NCBI RefSeq assembly: GCF_900120175.1
Contig: NZ_FQLF01000004.1
Location: forward strand, 310,001-374,000
Origin: Oceanicoccus sp. KOV_DT_Chl
GTDB lineage: Bacteria > Pseudomonadota > Gammaproteobacteria > Pseudomonadales > Dasaniaceae
Length of the DNA stretch: 64,000 nucleotides
Reading direction: 5' to 3'
In this document: positions 6,010-32,914 of the stretch, in pieces
Numbering within the stretch: the first letter of the stretch is position 1
Layout: every line of letters begins with the position of its first letter
Translations under genes and position numbers: made by a program
Notes under the pieces: generated by a model
Seen by the model: only the letters and a program-made list of their open reading frames with translations
What the model was told of the DNA's origin: nothing
The model's database searches: none

Positions 6010-6885
6010 ATGGATACCCAAAACTTAAAGGCCTTTGTGGAAGTGGCCGAAACCAGCTCTTTTTCTCACGCCGCAGAAATACTGCACTTAACACAGCCAG
6101 CCGTCAGCAAGCGGATCGCAGCGCTTGAAAGCCAACTGGATTGCAAGCTCTTCGACCGCATCAATCGCACTGTACAGCTAACTGAAGCCGGCCATTCGCT
6201 GCTCCCCAAAGCCCGGCAAATCCTGCTGGCAGTGCAGGAGGCGAAACGCAGCATTGATGATTTACAGGGTGATATAAGTGGCCAGTTACGGATTGGTATC
6301 AGTCACCATATTGGCCTGCATCGTTTACCGCCCGTATTACAAGCCTTTACACGCCAACACCCCAATGTCCATTTTGATATAGATTTTATGGATTCCGAAG
6401 AGGCACATGAACAAGTGATGCATGGTCAGATTGAGCTAGGTGTAGTCACACTGGACCCGGCAGACAATAGCCCGTTACGCCGCCAGCCGGTCTGGCAAGA
6501 TAAATTACTGGTTACCGTATCGCCAGACCACCCACTGGCGCAATCAGGCCGTGCTGACATCACTACCCTCAGTCAATTTCCGGCAATCTTACCTGGCCTG
6601 AATACATACACTGGGCAAATTATAAAAGCATTATTTCAACAGCATTCGTTAAAGCTCGATGTCTCAATGGCAACAAACTATTTGGAAACGATAAAAATGA
6701 TGGTGTCGATAGGATTGGGCTGGAGTGTGCTGCCACACACGATGATTGATGACAGTCTTAAAGTATTAGACATTGATGATCTAAAATTACATCGAACGTT
6801 AGGTTATGTTGTGCATCCCAATCGCAGCCTTAGCAATGCGGCTAACGCCTTTGTTGAGGCGCTACAAGCCAATGGCGTCTCTTAA
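6010..6885 (+). CDS. LysR-family regulator divergent from leuC
   Basis: This 291-residue protein has the LysR winged helix-turn-helix at residues 1-60 (MDTQNLKAFVEVAETSSFSH, then LHLTQPAVSKRIAALE) and an effector-binding domain to the end (RIGISHHIGLHRLPP at about 90). It is read divergently from leuC, the classic arrangement of a LysR regulator and its target. A role in leucine biosynthesis control is therefore likely but inferred from position. Its 3' end overlaps the end of the kinase gene on the other strand by 24 bases. It is intact. Confidence 0.85.
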   Translation: MDTQNLKAFVEVAETSSFSHAAEILHLTQPAVSKRIAALESQLDCKLFDRINRTVQLTEAGHSLLPKARQILLAVQEAKRSIDDLQGDISGQLRIGISHHIGLHRLPPVLQAFTRQHPNVHFDIDFMDSEEAHEQVMHGQIELGVVTLDPADNSPLRRQPVWQDKLLVTVSPDHPLAQSGRADITTLSQFPAILPGLNTYTGQIIKALFQQHSLKLDVSMATNYLETIKMMVSIGLGWSVLPHTMIDDSLKVLDIDDLKLHRTLGYVVHPNRSLSNAANAFVEALQANGVS

Positions 6886-8665
6886 TGGCCCGAATAAATC
6901 CAGCAACCAGAAAATTTCAGCGACAAAAAACAATCCCGCTAAAATCAAGCCCGCTTTAGCCAGCCGATGCCACCGCTTATTGCCCCGATGAAGTTTATCC
7001 TGTGCAGGCTCGGCTTGTATTTTGATCGTTTCTTCTGTTTCGCAAAAGGTTTGTAACGCCACCCTTACCTGCTCAATGTTGCTGTAACGCTTATCAGGAT
7101 TTACCGCCAGCATCTTACTAACAATTTTCTCAAGCGGTCCAGGTAAAATACTTAACGCATCAATGTTCTTGATACCTTTTCCGTTCTGGAGAATTATTTC
7201 TCCAGTCAATAAGTGAAATAATACTGCACCCGCGGAAAAAATATCAGAGGCCACTGAGCACTGTTCATGCAGCGGTTGATACCAGTCGATGCCAGTACCG
7301 ACACTATGATCATCAAAACCAAAATCCGTCAGTTTTATATGCGTGGATGTCTCCACCAGAATATTACTGGGGCGAAGATTACCATGTAATAAGCCAAGTT
7401 GATGGGCTTCATGAAGGCCTTTGCATATTTGTTGGGCTAATAACAACCATCGATCCAATGAAAAGGCCTGGGTTAATCGTTCCTGCAAACTACCGCCAGT
7501 GACGTATTCCATCACTACAATAAACACACGGTCATTTCTTGCGGTGCCATGAATCCTTGCTATATGTGGATGCGATAATTTAGCTAAAGCAGTTGCCGTA
7601 ATATAAGCATTACCTTCATAAGCGATCTGTTGTTTTTTTACAACCAACCACTGTTGACGTTTTGGCTCGCTCACTAAGTAGCTGGCGCCAAATTGATTTT
7701 CTTTCAGCACATCAAGTAATTTGTAATTATCGGGTAACTGGTCGCGCTGGCGCTCTTTTCCCATAAGGGATTAGCTAAATGCTTACCTTGTAACAATAAC
7801 AGTAAGCGGCGCTCTACTTCCTCAGCAGATTGGGGTCGCTGTTTCAAATCAGTATGCAAACACTGCCTGATAATATCCATTAGCGCTTTGGCTAAATGCT
7901 GAGTCACTGACTTTTTCTCGTCAGGACGAAAACCTAAAAACAATTCATGCATCAAAACCCCAAGCGAATAAATATCACTGAGATAGCTTGCCTCGGCTTC
8001 CGGGTCAGCCTGCTCAGGCGACATATAAGCAGGGGTGCCCATAATCACAGACTGAGTTTGCTGGCCATTAGCATTAGCCAGCTTTTTGAAATAACCGGCA
8101 ATACCGAAATCAACCACCCGCACATGACCGTCATAATCAACCAAAATATTGGCAGGTTTAATATCACGGTGTACTACGCCATTACGGTGCGCATAGGACA
8201 AGGCTTTGCAGATTTGGACTACAATATCGAGTTTACGTGACAGGAAACATCAGCACGCTTTGTAATTGCGGTTAAAGTGATGCTTTTGACATACTGCATG
8301 ACAAAATAAGGGTGCGCTTGACCATCACTGTCTACCAATGTGCCCTGGTCATAGACCTGAATAATATTGGGATGATTGAGTCCGGCAACAAGTAAGGACT
8401 CCTGCTGAAACTGGGATTCTACAATGGGATCCGCCAATAGCGTGGTATTCAAGACTTTAATAGCCACTGGGCGATCAAGCGATTGCTGCACAGCAAGATA
8501 CACAACCGCCATGCCCCCTTCACCCAAGGGATTCTTTATCTGGTATCCAGGCAACTCTAGCGGAGGTATCGAAGACAAAAGCGACTCATATTTATCAATA
8601 GTTATTTTATGAGCTAAAGTATAGACGCTAGAACAAGCATTAATAATGCTATAGACAGTGACCAT
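6862..8665 (-). CDS. Tandem Ser/Thr kinase-pseudokinase with C-terminal membrane anchor (two frameshifts)
   Basis: Read as one gene, this encodes about 600 residues with two Hanks-type kinase domains. Domain 1 has every active-kinase element: glycine loop LGEGGMAVVYLA, VAIKVL lysine, HRDIKPANIL catalytic loop, DFGIAGYF and GTPAYMSPEQA. Domain 2 lacks the glycine loop (ENQFGASYLV) and has HGNLRPSNIL in place of HRDxKPxN, so the catalytic Asp is gone although DFG remains; it should be a pseudokinase. A single membrane helix near the end (LILAGLFFVAEIFWLLDLFG) anchors it with both domains in the cytoplasm. The frame breaks twice. Near 8243 one base is missing before SRKLDIVVQICKALSYAHRN; at the T4 run 7756-7759 one base seems missing between NPLWEK and ERQRDQLPDNYKLL. 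The second break could instead be two overlapping genes. A divergent FHA gene is the obvious partner. Confidence 0.8.
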
Positions 8666-8721
8666 TGCTAAATTTTCTGCTAAAAAGCATAGATAGAAAT
8701 AAGTAGCTACGGAGAATTACG

Positions 8722-9303
8722 TTGGCAATCCAAGAAGACAACCCGTTCAACCCTGCCAAAAGCAGTACTGCAATTTGGGAATTGGTCGCTGAGGGCGATT
8801 GGCTAGTAGGCCAACGATTTAGAATAAACGGCCACGCGGTGTTAGGTAGAGATGCCAGCTGCGATATCACTATACCCGGCACCCATTTATCCAGACGTCA
8901 TGCTGAGCTGGCGGTCAAAGGCAATAAGTTACAAATACGCGATCTGGGTTCATCTAATGGCACTTATGTCAACGATGTAAAAGTCATGGATTCAGAGTTA
9001 AAAACAGGAGACACCGTTCGCTTTGATGTATTACGCTTTCGTATTCAGGGGCCAGAGTCAGCGGAACTCGACAGCAACGCGACTATGATTAGAGAAGCCC
9101 TCCCTAAAAAACCAGTGACATCACCCAAGCCACGTCCTGATTCCAAAAACTGGAAAACCAAGCCGACCTCTGTTGGCAACCGCAGCACCACCGAGCAAAT
9201 GTCGACGGTTAAAAAAGCCAGCAATACACTATGGACTGCAATTATTGTCGTTATTGGTCTCGCCACAGTGGCGGGTATCGGTTTTTTAATCACCCAGTTA
9301 TAA
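8722..9303 (+). CDS. FHA-domain protein with C-terminal membrane anchor
   Basis: The 193-residue protein has a forkhead-associated domain at about residues 25-115, with GRDASCDITIPGTHLSRRHAEL and IRDLGSSNGTYVND carrying the phosphothreonine-binding Arg, Ser and Asn. A Ser/Thr/Lys-rich linker follows (residues 120-165), rich in possible phosphorylation sites, and then one membrane helix, TAIIVVIGLATVAGIGFLIT. It should sit in the cytoplasm tethered to the inner membrane. It is read divergently from the tandem kinase gene, 56 bases away, and both proteins are tail-anchored, so it is a likely substrate or reader of that kinase. The gene is intact. Confidence 0.85.
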   Translation: MAIQEDNPFNPAKSSTAIWELVAEGDWLVGQRFRINGHAVLGRDASCDITIPGTHLSRRHAELAVKGNKLQIRDLGSSNGTYVNDVKVMDSELKTGDTVRFDVLRFRIQGPESAELDSNATMIREALPKKPVTSPKPRPDSKNWKTKPTSVGNRSTTEQMSTVKKASNTLWTAIIVVIGLATVAGIGFLITQL

Positions 9304-9365: not shown

Positions 9366-11786
9366 CTAAAACCGGTAAACACCCTGCACCGCTACACTTT
9401 TACTGCGCTCGTAAAAAGCATACCGACTAGCCACATCAAAGGACGTACCTGCCAGCGGTGTTTGGTTACCATAGGTCATGATCTCCTCGTCAGTCAGGTT
9501 TTTACCTATCAAGGCCACCTCCCAATTGGCATTAATATCAGAAATGGCAATACGGGCATTGACTTTGACATAGCCATCCTGATCCATGCCAGGGTCAAGT
9601 GTTTGAGTGGGGTTGTAATCATCAGTAAAAATTAAATCCAGAGAACTACTCAACGTTAAAGAGTCGCCGATAGTAGTAAAATAATTACCGGTTAAACTAC
9701 CACTCCAGTCGGCGACGTATTGGTTAGTACGACCTTTATAGTCACAATTATTACCGCTGGGGGAATTAGGTGTTTCACCGAAATTACATTGGCCTTCAGC
9801 ATAATCAGTAAATTCAAAATCCAGATAAGCCAAGGACCCGGAAACAGTAAAGCTCTCGGTAACTCTCCAGCGGCCATCAAGCTCCAGGCCATAGGTTTCT
9901 GCCTCACCAGCGTTACCCACATTAAAGCCTAAAGTGCCGTCAAAGATACTGACTTGAAGATCTTCATACTCGGTATAGAAAAGCGCGACATTAAGTTCAG
10001 CGGCGCCATCCATCAGCGTTGTTTTTGCACCCAACTCAAAGCTTGTCGCTTTTTCATCTTCGTATTCAAAGGTACCTACATTAGGAAAATAACCGAAACC
10101 TGCAGCTGCCGCGGGAAATTCCGGGGGAGAACCTGCGGGGTCAGCATTTGAACGAGCATCAAATCCTCCTGACTTACTTCCCTGAGAAATATTGGCGTAC
10201 ATCATCATGTCTGGGTTGATGTCATATTCGACTAATATGGAGGGTGAAAAAGCCTGCTCATTACGACTGTCTTTTAAGTTATGCCGATCGACTTTAAAAA
10301 CCAATCCGTAAACTGCATCAACACCAAAAGGCTGTGCCGAAAATATAGAGCCATAATCAAACGGTAACTCATTGCCTTGTAGATCCGTGTAAGTTAATTC
10401 GCGGCTACCATCCTTTTCTTCTTCGGTATAACGGCCACCAAAAGTTAACCGCAAATCATCACGTACATTCCAGGTTGCTTGTAAAAATGCGGAATAAATA
10501 TCGGTATCGGTGGTGAACTCTCGAGGCACTGCCGTATTTACCAAGAGATCACCGGGCGTGATGTTAAACGCGGCAAAACCGGCATTAACTGCTGCAGGTA
10601 AAATACTATTGGAATCCAACGTGATACGGTCATTGAAAACCAACTCACTGGATTGATAATACAATCCACCGATATACTCCCAGGTTTCACCGACTGGAGA
10701 GGTAAAGCGAATCTCCTGACTAATTTGCTCATATTCTTCTTGTGAACGCAGTGAAAAAATAGTCGCGCCGGTGAAATCACAATCGCAGACTTCGTCATAC
10801 TCATATTCGAGTAATCCGGTGATAAAAGTCAGTGTCCCCTCGCCCAAGGCGTAATTTGCAGTAAAGGTGATACTATCCGTTTCATTTTCACTGCTATCAC
10901 CATTAGATGTACGTTTATAGTCTTGCTCATTATTTAAGACTGATGCATCAGCGCCAAAACCAGCAACCAGAAGCTGGCTATAGGTTAAATTGTTGGCACC
11001 GGGCTCTTCATTAACAATTTCAATTTGTCGACCGGTAACATCAAATTCACCATGTTCAACTTTCAGTGATAAATCTAAATTTTCATTTACGTCTAAAGCA
11101 AAAGCGAGACGAATAGTCTCTTCATCCCGTCCTGGCTCATCATCACCGCTAAAGATATTCTCCATATAACCGTCCATTTCACGGCTACGGTAGGCTAAGC
11201 GCGCACTTAAATTATCGGTAAGTCCCCCGTTGAGGACTAAATCAAAAATCTCTTCACCATGCTCTGGCTCATATAAAGCCGTCACCGAACCTTCAAATTC
11301 ACTGCTTGGCTTGGCGGTGATAATACTCAGAGCACCTGAAATACTATTTTTACCAAATAATATATTTTGCGGGCCTCTAAGCACCTCAACCCTTTCTAAA
11401 TCCAGAAAAGGAGCTCGGGATAATTGAGCACGACCGTAAGATACGCCATCTATATACATACCCGTAGATTGCTCAAAACCCTGATTAATCCCGGAACCAA
11501 TACCACGTATGTAAATATTGGTACCGATACCCGTTTCAGACATGGTGAGATTTGGCACATAAGCCTGCAAATCCTCAATCTTATCGATCCCCGCCTCCAT
11601 TAATTTCGAGCCAGAAACTGCAGAAACGGACACAGGTACGTCCTGCAAGCTTTCAGTACGAATTTGGGCCGTAACAAGAATCTCTTCAAGCACCAACTCC
11701 TCTGCAGTAAGCGGCGAGAATGGCGATAAAGATGAAAGTAGTGCAGCGGATACTAATGGAACGTAGTTACTTTTTTGACGACTCAT
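9366..11786 (-). CDS. TonB-dependent outer-membrane receptor
   Basis: This is an 806-residue outer-membrane receptor of the type with a plug domain and a 22-strand barrel. The chosen ATG at 11786 has GGGGGA before it and gives the signal peptide MSRQKSNYVPLVSAALLSSL; a longer frame reaches 11903 but lacks a credible site. The TonB box-like segment LEEILVTAQ opens the mature protein, the plug motifs include VPNLTMSETGIGTNIYIRGI and VEVLRGPQNILFGKNSISGA, and the C-terminus ends in aromatic VAVQGVYRF. The EEILVTAQ style is common in marine proteobacteria for receptors of unknown ligands. No transporter or hydrolase gene next to it reveals the substrate. The gene is intact. Confidence 0.9.
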   Translation of the reverse strand: MSRQKSNYVPLVSAALLSSLSPFSPLTAEELVLEEILVTAQIRTESLQDVPVSVSAVSGSKLMEAGIDKIEDLQAYVPNLTMSETGIGTNIYIRGIGSGINQGFEQSTGMYIDGVSYGRAQLSRAPFLDLERVEVLRGPQNILFGKNSISGALSIITAKPSSEFEGSVTALYEPEHGEEIFDLVLNGGLTDNLSARLAYRSREMDGYMENIFSGDDEPGRDEETIRLAFALDVNENLDLSLKVEHGEFDVTGRQIEIVNEEPGANNLTYSQLLVAGFGADASVLNNEQDYKRTSNGDSSENETDSITFTANYALGEGTLTFITGLLEYEYDEVCDCDFTGATIFSLRSQEEYEQISQEIRFTSPVGETWEYIGGLYYQSSELVFNDRITLDSNSILPAAVNAGFAAFNITPGDLLVNTAVPREFTTDTDIYSAFLQATWNVRDDLRLTFGGRYTEEEKDGSRELTYTDLQGNELPFDYGSIFSAQPFGVDAVYGLVFKVDRHNLKDSRNEQAFSPSILVEYDINPDMMMYANISQGSKSGGFDARSNADPAGSPPEFPAAAAGFGYFPNVGTFEYEDEKATSFELGAKTTLMDGAAELNVALFYTEYEDLQVSIFDGTLGFNVGNAGEAETYGLELDGRWRVTESFTVSGSLAYLDFEFTDYAEGQCNFGETPNSPSGNNCDYKGRTNQYVADWSGSLTGNYFTTIGDSLTLSSSLDLIFTDDYNPTQTLDPGMDQDGYVKVNARIAISDINANWEVALIGKNLTDEEIMTYGNQTPLAGTSFDVASRYAFYERSKSVAVQGVYRF

Positions 11787-27857: not shown

Positions 27858-28877
27858 ATGCCGCGACAAATAATTGAAATATCCAGATATATGCAGACTG
27901 AAATAATGCAGTCACTTATTCAACAGTGCGGCCATAAGGGGTTAAGGCTAAGCTTTGAGCCCTTTATTAGTTTAGTGGATAAAAACGGGTGCCGACCAAG
28001 TGAACTCGCCACTTTATTAAATATCAGTAAGCAAGCCTGTAACCAGAGTATTAACGAGATAGAAATTAAAGGGTATCTATATCGTCAGCCAGACCCAGCA
28101 GATGGCCGCGGAAAAATTCTTAAGTTAACGCCACAAGGTATACGCCTAAAAAAAGATGGCATGGCGGCAGCCGCTGCATTGCAGCAGCAGTTTGCAAATC
28201 ATCTTGGGCAACAGGCAATAAGTGAATTAACCCATATCCTGTTCATGCTGATGACAAGCCTGGGTATTGACCAACAACGCATTAGCGGACGTCAACACAA
28301 TACCCCTGCTATTCTTGCAACGTTATTACCCGGCTTAAGTAACCATATTATGCAACGGCTGATGCAGCTGACCATAGAACAAGGGCATCCACAATTAAAA
28401 TTATCACACGGCCAGGTGTTCACTTTAATTAGTAATGGTGGCCGCCGTATTCAAGATATTGCTGCCATCAACAATGTCAGTAAACAATCAATTAGTGCAA
28501 TAGCAGCGGAGCTGGTTACATTAGGCTACATCCAACGCATCACACTCCCTCACGATGCAAGACAACAGCTATTAACACTGACAACCCAAGGCGAATTGCT
28601 GATAGAAGATTCAGTACAGTCAGTCAAAGAATTAGAGCAGGATTTTATTGATATTTTGGGTAACAAAAATTTTATAAAATTAAAGTCATTAGTCGCTAAT
28701 TTACATAAGGCCCTGAACATAGAGCCGACGCGTTACAGTGATAACAGCGCACTATTAGCCTTAGCGGCAAAGCTTAGACATCAATTAAGCGCTGACGATT
28801 GTTTAAGACTGGCGCAGTTGCTTAGCCAACAAGACGCTGCCACAACACACGCTATTAAAGCTACCGCTCCACATTAA
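27858..28877 (+). CDS. Tandem MarR-family regulator (two winged-helix domains fused)
   Basis: The 339-residue protein carries two MarR-type winged helix-turn-helix units in one chain. The first covers about residues 10-135 (PSELATLLNISKQACNQSIN, EIKGYLYRQPDPADGRGKIL), the second about residues 165-290 (IQDIAAINNVSKQSISAIAA, LVTLGYIQRITLPHDARQQL). Both keep the recognition helix and the Asp/Arg wing. MarR proteins normally work as homodimers of about 150 residues; this fusion would be a covalent pseudo-dimer. It lies divergent to an SDR gene and 23 bases ahead of a fatty-acid-hydroxylase gene, its likely targets. Confidence 0.85.
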   Translation: MPRQIIEISRYMQTEIMQSLIQQCGHKGLRLSFEPFISLVDKNGCRPSELATLLNISKQACNQSINEIEIKGYLYRQPDPADGRGKILKLTPQGIRLKKDGMAAAAALQQQFANHLGQQAISELTHILFMLMTSLGIDQQRISGRQHNTPAILATLLPGLSNHIMQRLMQLTIEQGHPQLKLSHGQVFTLISNGGRRIQDIAAINNVSKQSISAIAAELVTLGYIQRITLPHDARQQLLTLTTQGELLIEDSVQSVKELEQDFIDILGNKNFIKLKSLVANLHKALNIEPTRYSDNSALLALAAKLRHQLSADDCLRLAQLLSQQDAATTHAIKATAPH

Positions 28878-29690: not shown

Positions 29691-29894
29691 TTAGCGGTTA
29701 CCACTGGCCTCGCCAGCTACACCTGCCATTTTTTCTTGCTGAATACGTTGATAGATCTCCTCGCGGTGAACCTCAACTTCTCTAGGAGCAGCAATCCCCA
29801 ATCGAACCTGGTTACCCTGTACTTCAAGGACAGTGATTTTAACATCGTCTCCGATAATCACAGTTTCACCAATTCTTCTCGTTAGTATTAACAC
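29691..29894 (-). CDS. csrA: Carbon storage regulator CsrA
   Basis: A 67-residue CsrA/Rsm[21 protein letters not shown], then [27 protein letters not shown]. These contain the RNA-binding strands beta-1 and beta-5 with Leu4 and Arg44. CsrA dimers bind GGA motifs in mRNA leaders and repress or stabilise them. The start is GTG at 29894 with AGAGGG before it. A palindrome matching the one in the luxI promoter region lies 80-99 bases upstream, so quorum-sensing control of csrA is plausible (see findings). The gene is intact. Confidence 0.95.
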
Positions 29895-29973
29895 GGCACC
29901 CTCTTTACATAAATTTACAAAGCAGAAATTACTATTATTCTACAACGATAGTGGCAGGCTTTAAATATATAAC

Positions 29974-29993
29974 AACTACCTAGAGGGGTAGTT
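29974..29993. promoter_or_regulatory. Lux-box-like palindrome upstream of csrA
   Basis: AACTACC (29974-29980) and GGTAGTT (29987-29993) form a perfect 7-bp dyad with a 6-base spacer (TAGAGG), 20 bases in all. It lies just past the luxR stop codon and about 80 bases ahead of csrA. The identical arms occur in the luxR-luxI spacer. Lux boxes are about 20 bases, so the shape fits. It might instead be a terminator hairpin for plus-strand reads, since TTTT follows, but no plus-strand gene precedes it. Confidence 0.6.
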
Positions 29994-29994
29994 T

Positions 29995-30834
29995 TTACAA
30001 AAAATGTTGGTTTCGTGCAAGCCTAGCCAGCTGATGACCCGAAACCTTAGGAAGATTAAATTTCTTTCTGATATTCTTTAAATGCACTTTGATGTTATCA
30101 ACAGTACAACTTTTAAGTTCAGCAATCTGTTTTTGGCCAGCACTGGGGTTTTCAAAAAATAACCTTAATACCTCCGCTTCAGCTTTACTCAAAGACGGCG
30201 ATTTAATATCAGCCGGGTTTTGCCCCGCGTCTTTACAAGACTCACAGTCATATAAAGAGTTAATTATGTCCCCCAACAATAAAGCACCTGCCCTAACCTC
30301 ACGCCAATCGACTTTGTTGCTTGTATTCTCAGGCGTAGCAAAACTTAAATCGCTGATATAAATATCATTGGCAATTTGCAGAAAAATACCGCTATAGATA
30401 CCGTGCTGTGCGGCTTCAGAATACACATTCATCGCCCGTTGCAAGTATTCCTTCTCGCCTAGATTGTCCACATTAATCGGTTTGGCCAGCGCTTTATCGA
30501 TCAGTTCCGACCAATAGCCATGGTCAATATATTCAGGTGAATCCGAATCGCTGGTGAAGCGGATAACGGGATCAAACAGATAATGACGCTCAGCAATATA
30601 ACGTGAGTCCCATGCCACCGGAAAATTACTCAAATAAAAGCCCGGTGAAATCATCGAGTTAATCGCCATGCCCTTCAAGCGAAAAGCAAACCGATAGTAT
30701 CGAAACCCCAGTGAAGCTGCTGCACGCTCAATGGTCTGTTGTAAGCGATTGATACATTCCGGGTCATTCGCACCTCTGGTGCAGCCGCCAGGCGCAATAT
30801 CCTCAACAATCAGATCTATAAACTGGCTCTTCAC
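29995..30834 (-). CDS. LuxR-type quorum-sensing regulator
   Basis: About 279 residues. The N-terminal autoinducer-binding domain shows SNFPVAWDSRYIAERHYLFD followed by PVIRF, matching the conserved Trp, Tyr and Asp-Pro of acyl-homoserine-lactone receptors. The C-terminal LuxR helix-turn-helix is LSKAEAEVLRLFFENPSAGQ and CTVDNIKVHLKNIRKKFNLP. I choose GTG at 30834, which has AGGAG five bases upstream, over GTG at 30852. It is read divergently from a LuxI-type synthase gene, the usual cognate pair. Palindromic sites lie on both sides of the gene. Confidence 0.85.
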   Translation of the reverse strand: MKSQFIDLIVEDIAPGGCTRGANDPECINRLQQTIERAAASLGFRYYRFAFRLKGMAINSMISPGFYLSNFPVAWDSRYIAERHYLFDPVIRFTSDSDSPEYIDHGYWSELIDKALAKPINVDNLGEKEYLQRAMNVYSEAAQHGIYSGIFLQIANDIYISDLSFATPENTSNKVDWREVRAGALLLGDIINSLYDCESCKDAGQNPADIKSPSLSKAEAEVLRLFFENPSAGQKQIAELKSCTVDNIKVHLKNIRKKFNLPKVSGHQLARLARNQHFL

Positions 30835-30859
30835 GCCCACTCCTACCCGCACAACACCA

Positions 30860-30879
30860 AACTACCCCAAAAGGTAGTT
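30860..30879. promoter_or_regulatory. Lux-box-like palindrome in the luxR-luxI spacer
   Basis: AACTACC (30860-30866) and GGTAGTT (30873-30879) with spacer CCAAAA make a 20-base palindrome between the divergent LuxR and LuxI genes. It is centred about 75 bases ahead of the luxI start and lies 25 bases ahead of the luxR start. Position and size are those of a lux box; binding of this LuxR is inferred. Confidence 0.7.
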
Positions 30880-30943
30880 TTATTCTTCGCCAATAGCTTA
30901 ACTTAAATGGGCTCAATTCTGAGCAATCATTTAAGGAGTTACT

Positions 30944-31624
30944 ATGAAGCACTTACAAACCCGGCTCTACATCGCAACCCAAACCCCCGTTCACCTTAAA
31001 CAACAATACGGCCAACTTCGCTATCAATGCTTTGACCCTGATGATCCCTATGTGAATATGAACCATCAACAGCAAATAGAGTTAGATCACTTCGATCAAC
31101 AGCCATCAACCATTTATATCATGATAACTGAAACCACTGCCAAAGGTCAGGACTCCCTTATCAGTGCCGTTAGATTTTTACCCACAATCTACGATTATGA
31201 ACTGGAAGCTAGTAGCTATCAGTACCTGACACATGGTACCAAGCTGCCAAAATCACCGACTATTTGGGAGAGCTCTCGCTGGGTCGGTAAAAGCAGCCGC
31301 ACCCGGCTAGGACAACTCAGCACCGGCCTACTTAGCGTTGCAATGTATGAATTAGCGCAACAGAAAGCATTCAGTGCGATTATTGGCGTAATTACTAGTA
31401 AGGCAAAACGCTGGATGAATGCCAGGGAACTGAACACCAGGCAGACGTCCGAACTGTATCGTAGCGAGCGGGATAATACCGACTTAATGATTCAGACAAC
31501 AACAATTGATATTTCAATGTATCAAATGGGCATGACAATGTTGCAATCAGCCATGGGCAACAAAGTTGAACTCATCAGAACGCTGGCAGTCCAGGATGAC
31601 TACCTTGAAGAAGGCGTGGTATAG
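30944..31624 (+). CDS. LuxI-family acyl-homoserine-lactone synthase
   Basis: A 226-residue protein with the conserved residues of LuxI enzymes in order: R26 and F30 (LRYQCF), E46, D48 and D51 (ELDHFD), R77 in ISAVRFLP, and the WESSRWV motif near residue 107, equivalent to the catalytic E and R of WExSRF. It would make an acyl-homoserine lactone from S-adenosylmethionine and acyl-ACP. The C-terminal third diverges from well-known members, so the acyl chain cannot be guessed. AAGGAG lies five bases before the ATG. It is divergent to its likely cognate LuxR. Confidence 0.82.
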   Translation: MKHLQTRLYIATQTPVHLKQQYGQLRYQCFDPDDPYVNMNHQQQIELDHFDQQPSTIYIMITETTAKGQDSLISAVRFLPTIYDYELEASSYQYLTHGTKLPKSPTIWESSRWVGKSSRTRLGQLSTGLLSVAMYELAQQKAFSAIIGVITSKAKRWMNARELNTRQTSELYRSERDNTDLMIQTTTIDISMYQMGMTMLQSAMGNKVELIRTLAVQDDYLEEGVV

Positions 31625-31801: not shown

Positions 31802-32277
31802 ATGAGCGAACAACCCATCAAGCCCTATAGCGCCAAACAAGAAAAATTCGGGACTTGGATTATTAATAAAATCGGCCGCTGGCAAACAACTATTTATGAA
31901 CTTACAGGTGGCCGGGTATGGAACAAATTTCTGGGCTCGCCCGTCGCAATCCTTACTACCGTCGGCCGCAAAAGTGGTATTGAAAGAAAAATCCCGCTGC
32001 TATTTTTAATGCACGGCGAAGAAGTGGTCATGACAGCATCCAAAGGGGCATGTCAAAATTACCCCTGTGGTACTTCAACTTAAAAGCCAAGCCGGAAGCT
32101 CAAATTCAAATTGGCAGCGTTAAAAAAACCTACACCATGCGCGAAGCCAATGAGCAAGAAGAACAATTACTATGGCCGCAACTGGAAGATATGTATGCAG
32201 ACTATAAAGAGTATCGCGCGCGCACCGAGGGCGTACGCAGAATACCGGTACTTATTTTTACCCCTTTAGGCACTTAG
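31802..32277 (+). CDS. Deazaflavin-type nitroreductase family protein (one frameshift)
   Basis: About 158 residues of the DUF385/deazaflavin-dependent nitroreductase-like family. The first part reads GSPVAILTTVGRKSGIERKI and PLLFLMHGEEVVMTASKGG, the second SKLPLWYFNLKAKPEAQIQI and EGVRRIPVLIFT. They lie in different frames; one extra G in the G4 run at 32045-32048 joins them as KGGMSKLPLWYFNL, the family-typical sequence. A flavin or F420-type cofactor is expected from the fold; true F420 use is unlikely to be provable here. Stand-alone gene between luxI and the tRNA group. Confidence 0.78.
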
Positions 32278-32565: not shown

Positions 32566-32641
32566 GCGGGAATAGCTCAGTTGGTAGAGCGGTACCTTGC
32601 CAAGGTACAGGTCGCCAGTTCGAACCTGGTTTCCCGCTCCA
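32566..32641 (+). tRNA. tRNA-Gly (GCC)
   Basis: A 76-base cloverleaf with CCA encoded: acceptor GCGGGAA pairs with TTCCCGC, the D-arm is AGCTCAGTTGGTAGAGC, the anticodon loop is TTGCCAA giving GCC, and the T-arm contains GTTCGAA. First gene of a Gly-Cys-Leu cluster. Confidence 0.96.
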
Positions 32642-32692
32642 ATAATTAACAAGCGCAGTAAAGGCACCGTTAAGTTGCCAGAGTAAGATCAA

Positions 32693-32766
32693 GGCGCGGT
32701 GGCAGAGTGGTCATGCAGCTGACTGCAACTCAGTGTACGCCGGTTCGATTCCGACCCGCGCCTCCA
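32693..32766 (+). tRNA. tRNA-Cys (GCA)
   Basis: A 74-base cloverleaf including CCA: acceptor GGCGCGG pairs with CCGCGCC, the anticodon loop CTGCAAC gives GCA, and the T-arm is GGTTCGATTCC. It follows tRNA-Gly by about 50 bases. Confidence 0.95.
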
Positions 32767-32827
32767 TTTACTGACTGACCGCTCAGTAAATAACACGGCT
32801 ACCGCCGTGTATAAACAACCCCTCGAT

Positions 32828-32914
32828 GCCCGGGTGGTGAAATCGGTAGACACACAAGACTTAAAATCTTGCGCTTGCAAGAGCGTGCCGGTTCAAGTCC
32901 GGCCCCGGGCACCA
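32828..32914 (+). tRNA. tRNA-Leu (TAA)
   Basis: An 87-base tRNA with long variable arm and CCA: acceptor GCCCGGG pairs with CCCGGGC, the anticodon loop ACTTAAAAT gives TAA, and the T-arm is GGTTCAAGTCC. Last of the three tRNAs. Its 3' end is partly repeated 178 bases downstream. Confidence 0.96.

Follow-up and report, generated by a model that had tools for sequence, protein, structure and literature searches.

In Oceanicoccus sp. KOV_DT_Chl, the genes csrA, luxR and luxI were identified side by side in the window, the 64,000-nucleotide stretch of contig NZ_FQLF01000004.1 that was analyzed (Table 1). The luxR and csrA genes are both located on the minus strand and are separated by a gap of approximately 100 bp, and luxI is transcribed from the plus strand. 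The palindrome AACTACC-N6-GGTAGTT was present twice, just as the sequence-only reading had claimed. The two copies are 886 bp apart, each lies in a gap of the luxR locus, and they match at 14/14 arm positions. The csrA-side copy is located 1 bp from the luxR stop codon and 79 bp from the GTG of csrA. The centre of the luxI-side copy is about 75 bp from the ATG of luxI and about 36 bp from the likely start of luxR, GTG 30834, which has AGGAG ahead of it.

Table 1. Genes, palindromes and promoter-like elements of the csrA-luxR-luxI locus (window coordinates)
Feature	Position	Strand	Remarks
csrA	29691..29894	-	67 aa, GTG start; PF02599 E=1.3e-26; TIGR00202 over cut-off
-10-like TAGAAT (csrA)	29937..29942	-	31 bp past csrA-side box; box centre at about -53; 5/6 to TATAAT; consensus match only
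Weak -10-like CACTAT (csrA)	29948..29953	-	20 bp past box; box centre at about -42.5; 3/6, class-II spacing
csrA-side candidate lux box AACTACCCCTCTAGGTAGTT	29974..29993	-	Arms match exactly; only one other exact genomic site
luxR	29995..30834	-	279 aa when started at GTG 30834; reading frame open as far as 30852; PF03472 (signal-binding domain) and PF00196 (HTH)
luxI-side lux box AACTACCCCAAAAGGTAGTT, probable	30860..30879	+	Palindrome shared with the luxR-luxI gaps of G037 and G027; G069 has a co-varied form
-10-like TTAAAT (luxI)	30903..30908	+	23 bp past box; 4/6
luxI	30944..31624	+	226 aa; PF00765 E=8.3e-8; synthase of a rare divergent subfamily

The window LuxR contained an Autoind_bind domain (PF03472, 48 bits, 1.1e-12) and a LuxR-type HTH domain (PF00196, 23.7 bits), both over the cut-off. 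Inspection of the alignments indicated that the ligand pocket was kept (W75, Y79, D88, P89, W108 and G149); we take these residues to correspond to W57, Y61, D70, P71, W85 and G113 in TraR numbering. By its domains and pocket residues the protein is an AHL-type regulator, and it is predicted to bind an AHL. The window LuxI scored 32.4 bits with Autoind_synth (PF00765, cut-off 24) and displayed conserved residues of the catalytic core (R26, D48, D51, R77, E109 and R112), the usual Trp34 not being evident. The nearest solved relatives by profile were RhlR, SdiA and LasR for LuxR, and LasI (1ro5) for LuxI. The identity of both proteins to characterized members was low, and LuxR was only distantly related to any characterized LuxR-type protein.

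The window CsrA displayed a full-length domain (profile positions 1-53 of 53), with the motifs MLILTRR and VHREEIY in its translation. The RNA-binding residues of CsrA/RsmA are Leu4 and Arg44, and both were found in the window protein. Six csrA-like genes were detected in the genome. The sixth (G000:C2:153748-153900) shares only approximately 48% identity with the window CsrA; it is interrupted by an in-frame TAA inside the matching region and is possibly decayed.

Scanning of the whole 4.8-Mb genome identified no exact copies of the palindrome other than these two and no one-mismatch sites. By arithmetic, about 0.02 exact matches would be expected in 4.8 Mb by chance, and the occurrence of two exact copies exceeds this by far. 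Within the window, two sites with at most two mismatches were observed and 0.19 were expected from dinucleotide shuffles. The 17 two-mismatch sites in the genome were rejected as LuxR targets and regarded as background, since the total with at most two mismatches (19) was below that of a reversed-pattern control (54).

The LuxR subfamily was rare. Using a LuxR profile, members were found in 4 of the 391 genomes of the order, including the genome under study, and in none of 369 further genomes of the class. The three relatives, G027, G037 and G069, each encode a divergent luxR-luxI pair, and the comparison thus comprised four loci. The luxR-luxI gap of G037 contained AACTACCAAACATGATAGTT, which matched 13/14 arm positions (0/5000 Markov shuffles), and that of G027 contained TACTACCCCTAGGGGTAGTA, matching 12/14 (P=0.0008, shuffles). 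The gap of G069 contained TACTATCTATATGGATAGTA, in which the palindrome has become TACTATC-N6-GATAGTA (P=0.036 when tested against the consensus). The sites were seen before these tests and those on the gaps behind luxR, given below, were made, and all of these P values therefore serve as guides. A -10-like hexamer matching at 4/6 positions was located 21 bp past the box in the relatives (23 bp in the window). No AACTACC-type box was detected ahead of luxI in 14 other luxI-bearing neighbourhoods of the order, and the luxI-side palindrome is therefore specific to the subfamily. All luxI-bearing members that were located have it between luxR and luxI, and it is thus very probably the lux box of this subfamily. 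The earlier proposal that both palindromes are lux boxes for the window LuxR is thus well supported by the comparison with relatives, and both are predicted to be bound by it.

A second box was located behind luxR in three of the four subfamily loci: before csrA in the window, before a second luxR in G069 and before an ORF-less stretch in G037. In G027, the second copy was found past luxI instead. The second box of G037, situated 40 bp past the luxR stop, matched 12/14 arm positions (P=0.0001 in the gap concerned). That of G069 was located 140 bp past the luxR1 stop and was identical at 18/20 positions to the luxI-side box of the same locus. Both G069 boxes have drifted from the AACTACC form and yet agree with each other; both sites thus changed together, and such joint drift would be the outcome expected from co-evolution with one binding protein. 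The best -10 within the next 50 bp of the second box in G037 and G069 was found 20 or 21 bp away and matched at 5/6 positions (TAGAAT, TATAAA). The second box is therefore placed near -42.5, at class-II activator spacing.

A point against reading the csrA-side palindrome as an operator is that it could form a 7-bp hairpin (about -8 kcal/mol) directly past the luxR stop. The palindrome might then act as an intrinsic terminator for luxR, or terminate transcription in both directions, and would resemble the luxI-side box by coincidence. In line with this, the G069 counterpart is flanked by A5 and T8. However, what follows on the luxR strand is GTTATATATT instead of a T tract, and G-C pairs number only three in the stem. 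Nor would a terminator have to match the luxI box in both arms, and a match of at least 13/14 would occur by chance in this 100-bp gap with a probability of 5e-5. Moreover, both G069 sites shifted to ACTATC together, and G037 has a strong terminator further on, separate from its box. Since the hairpin on the luxR strand is without a T tract and has no need to resemble the luxI box, we consider a terminator very unlikely.

The reading that we prefer, with a probability of about 0.6, is that LuxR together with its signal activates both luxI and csrA. Both palindromes would be operators of LuxR, whose gene lies between them. Once loaded with the acyl-homoserine-lactone that LuxI produces, LuxR would bind the luxI-side box and switch on luxI, giving positive feedback, and the same complex would bind the csrA-side box and switch on this csrA paralogue. 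Since the genome has no further exact or one-mismatch site, CsrA and its action on mRNAs would be the main route by which the density signal is passed on. Predicted in this scheme are the binding of LuxR, the identity of its ligand, the positive rather than negative sign of the control and the consequences of CsrA action downstream. It can reasonably be inferred that the quorum signal controls csrA, the direction of this control being the most doubtful point. Ahead of csrA, the hexamer with class-II spacing (CACTAT) is weak, the better TAGAAT lies 11 bp further, and a box at about -53 is unusual; the box of the lux operon is at -42.5 (PMC3376562). With five other csrA-like genes present, total CsrA may change little. 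If the reading is true, a quorum circuit with two exact genomic sites, one at its own synthase gene and one at the gene of a global RNA-binding regulator, would offer a very compact means of translating cell density into broad control at the post-transcriptional level.

Direct regulation of a csrA homologue by LuxR-type proteins has been described before: in Pectobacterium, ExpR1 and ExpR2 bind the rsmA promoter and activate it, and rsmA is described as their only known direct target (PMC3376562, PMC5442451). The sequence-only reading had regarded direct LuxR control of csrA as undescribed. This does not hold in general and applies to the arrangement only, namely csrA behind luxR with the same box as luxI; a csrA gene adjacent to luxR was not found described in the open-access literature. 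The ExpR1/ExpR2-rsmA systems of P. carotovorum and P. wasabiae resemble the window in that a LuxR-type receptor controls transcription of a csrA homologue directly, as is predicted for the window, and in that the ExpR operator is 20 bp long. They differ in that no lux-box-like element was reported in the rsmA promoter region, whereas the csrA-side site copies the luxI-side box arm for arm, and csrA in the window is the adjacent gene behind luxR.

ExpR acts at rsmA without AHL and is released by AHL (PMC3376562, PMC5442451). LuxR could likewise act in the opposite sense at the csrA-side box, repressing csrA with the signal or activating it only without the signal. ExpR1 and ExpR2 activate rsmA only without AHL, and a box at about -53 from the better -10 is not at the classical activator position; both are consistent with such a sense of control. 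On the other hand, luxI makes use of this box in the divergent arrangement typical of activation by the signal, and class-II activator spacing was observed for the second boxes in the relatives. The window LuxR is also distant from all characterized LuxR-type proteins, with no particular tie to the ExpR group. Control in the opposite sense thus appears unlikely, and activation by LuxR with its signal is preferred.

Divergent luxR-luxI genes and an intervening 20-bp inverted repeat are shared by the window and the LuxR/LuxI system of Vibrio fischeri, where the repeat is centred at -42.5; in the window it would likewise occupy the activator position. The V. fischeri system differs by having one lux box, which drives the lux operon, whereas a second copy precedes csrA in the window. 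The intervening regulators named in the available portion of a survey of luxR-luxI arrangements were rsaL, rsaM and mupX, not csrA (PMC3386692). RsaL/RsaM-type accessory regulators, which that survey covers, are like the window csrA in being encoded by small genes embedded at a luxR-luxI locus. They differ in sitting between luxR and luxI and feeding back on the synthase.

With LuxI scans and the LuxR profile, the csrA-luxR-luxI order was not found in any relative among the 391 genomes of the order, the 369 genomes of the class, the family of G027, plasmids, phages and viral contigs. Across these sets, the subfamily was detected only in G027, G037 and G069, and csrA was absent from the retrieved stretches around their loci. 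The csrA-side box is therefore without a direct phylogenetic footprint, as no relative with csrA in that position was found. The closest relatives of the window csrA, with 85% identity over the full length, were detected in three congeners. Judged from inspected translations, these genes have an NmrA-like oxidoreductase gene on one side and a sigma/anti-sigma-like pair on the other; in none of the three was luxR, luxI or the box found near csrA. The DNA similarity to the congener csrA extends through the coding sequence and ends at the start codon, and the ribosome-binding site and promoter differ. Thus, the window csrA has a different, lux-box-bearing upstream region. The comparison with these sister species suggests how the wiring originated: a csrA that stands alone elsewhere has a new box-bearing upstream region here, either through a move of the gene or through insertion of the luxR-luxI block.

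Alternatively, csrA might be co-transcribed with luxR across the 100-bp gap and simply follow luxR levels, the second box being of little consequence. The two genes are on the same strand with a short gap, and a convincing terminator was not seen between them. Co-transcription nevertheless explains neither the exact second box nor the fact that two relatives also have one behind luxR, followed there by other sequence. We therefore regard this explanation as distinctly improbable, and a LuxR-responsive box in front of csrA is preferred.

A second luxR-luxI locus was identified in the same genome, which encodes two LuxR proteins with a signal-binding domain (L025, G000:C2:122000-140000; 6104-6286, 8427-9137 and 9578-10207). 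Here a csrA gene is located on the luxR side, 2.1 kb past luxR2 with a carboxylesterase-like gene between them, and the AACTACC box is absent. This locus was rejected as support, since it has no box and no csrA was present near luxI in 14 luxI2-like neighbourhoods.

A broader proposal is put forward tentatively, with somewhat less than even probability. The direct LuxR regulon would consist of luxI and one csrA paralogue, making quorum sensing an almost wholly post-transcriptional relay, and the box behind luxR would be an output slot of the subfamily taking different regulators (csrA, a second luxR or a putative sRNA). In G037, the second box is followed by TAGAAT at 20 bp and then by about 75 nt, at the end of which is a hairpin of very high stability that has UCUCCUUA as its loop and a T tract (L048 9455-9590, fold -37 kcal/mol). 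This ORF-less, terminator-bounded stretch may encode a quorum-controlled sRNA; no Rfam match was obtained for the candidate (L048/L049). The sRNAs Lrs1 and RhlS of Pseudomonas aeruginosa are described, in the available portions of the respective reports, as quorum-sensing-controlled non-coding outputs of a luxR-luxI system (PMC11949849, PMC6786874). To the extent of those portions, the G037 candidate is similar in being a non-coding output tied to such a system, whereas the window has csrA in the corresponding place.

An exact box was also found in G069 between a subfamily luxR without luxI and a response regulator gene, which is followed by a histidine kinase gene (L051 10420-10439). Another signalling output may be under control of the box at this site. 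The G027 genome contained 20 ACTACC-N6-GGTAGT palindromes against four in the control (L078, L079, L080, L083 and others), some of them on the promoter side of genes and others, at gene ends, resembling terminators or repeats. These were not counted as evidence of a genome-wide regulon because several of the gene-end sites have T tracts and UUCG-like loops and are terminator-like.

No composition break was seen around the csrA-luxR-luxI locus, and no Rfam match was obtained in the window stretch. A tRNA Gly-Cys-Leu cluster (32566-32914) is located about 1 kb past luxI; tRNA clusters are typical insertion places of islands. A gene encoding a 339-aa protein with two tandem MarR domains (27858-28877) is divergent from a short-chain dehydrogenase gene. 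Past luxI, a nitroreductase-like gene (31802-32277) is split into two overlapping frames by an apparent frameshift, and a homologue is located near a luxR of the same subfamily in G027 (L035 3171-3785).
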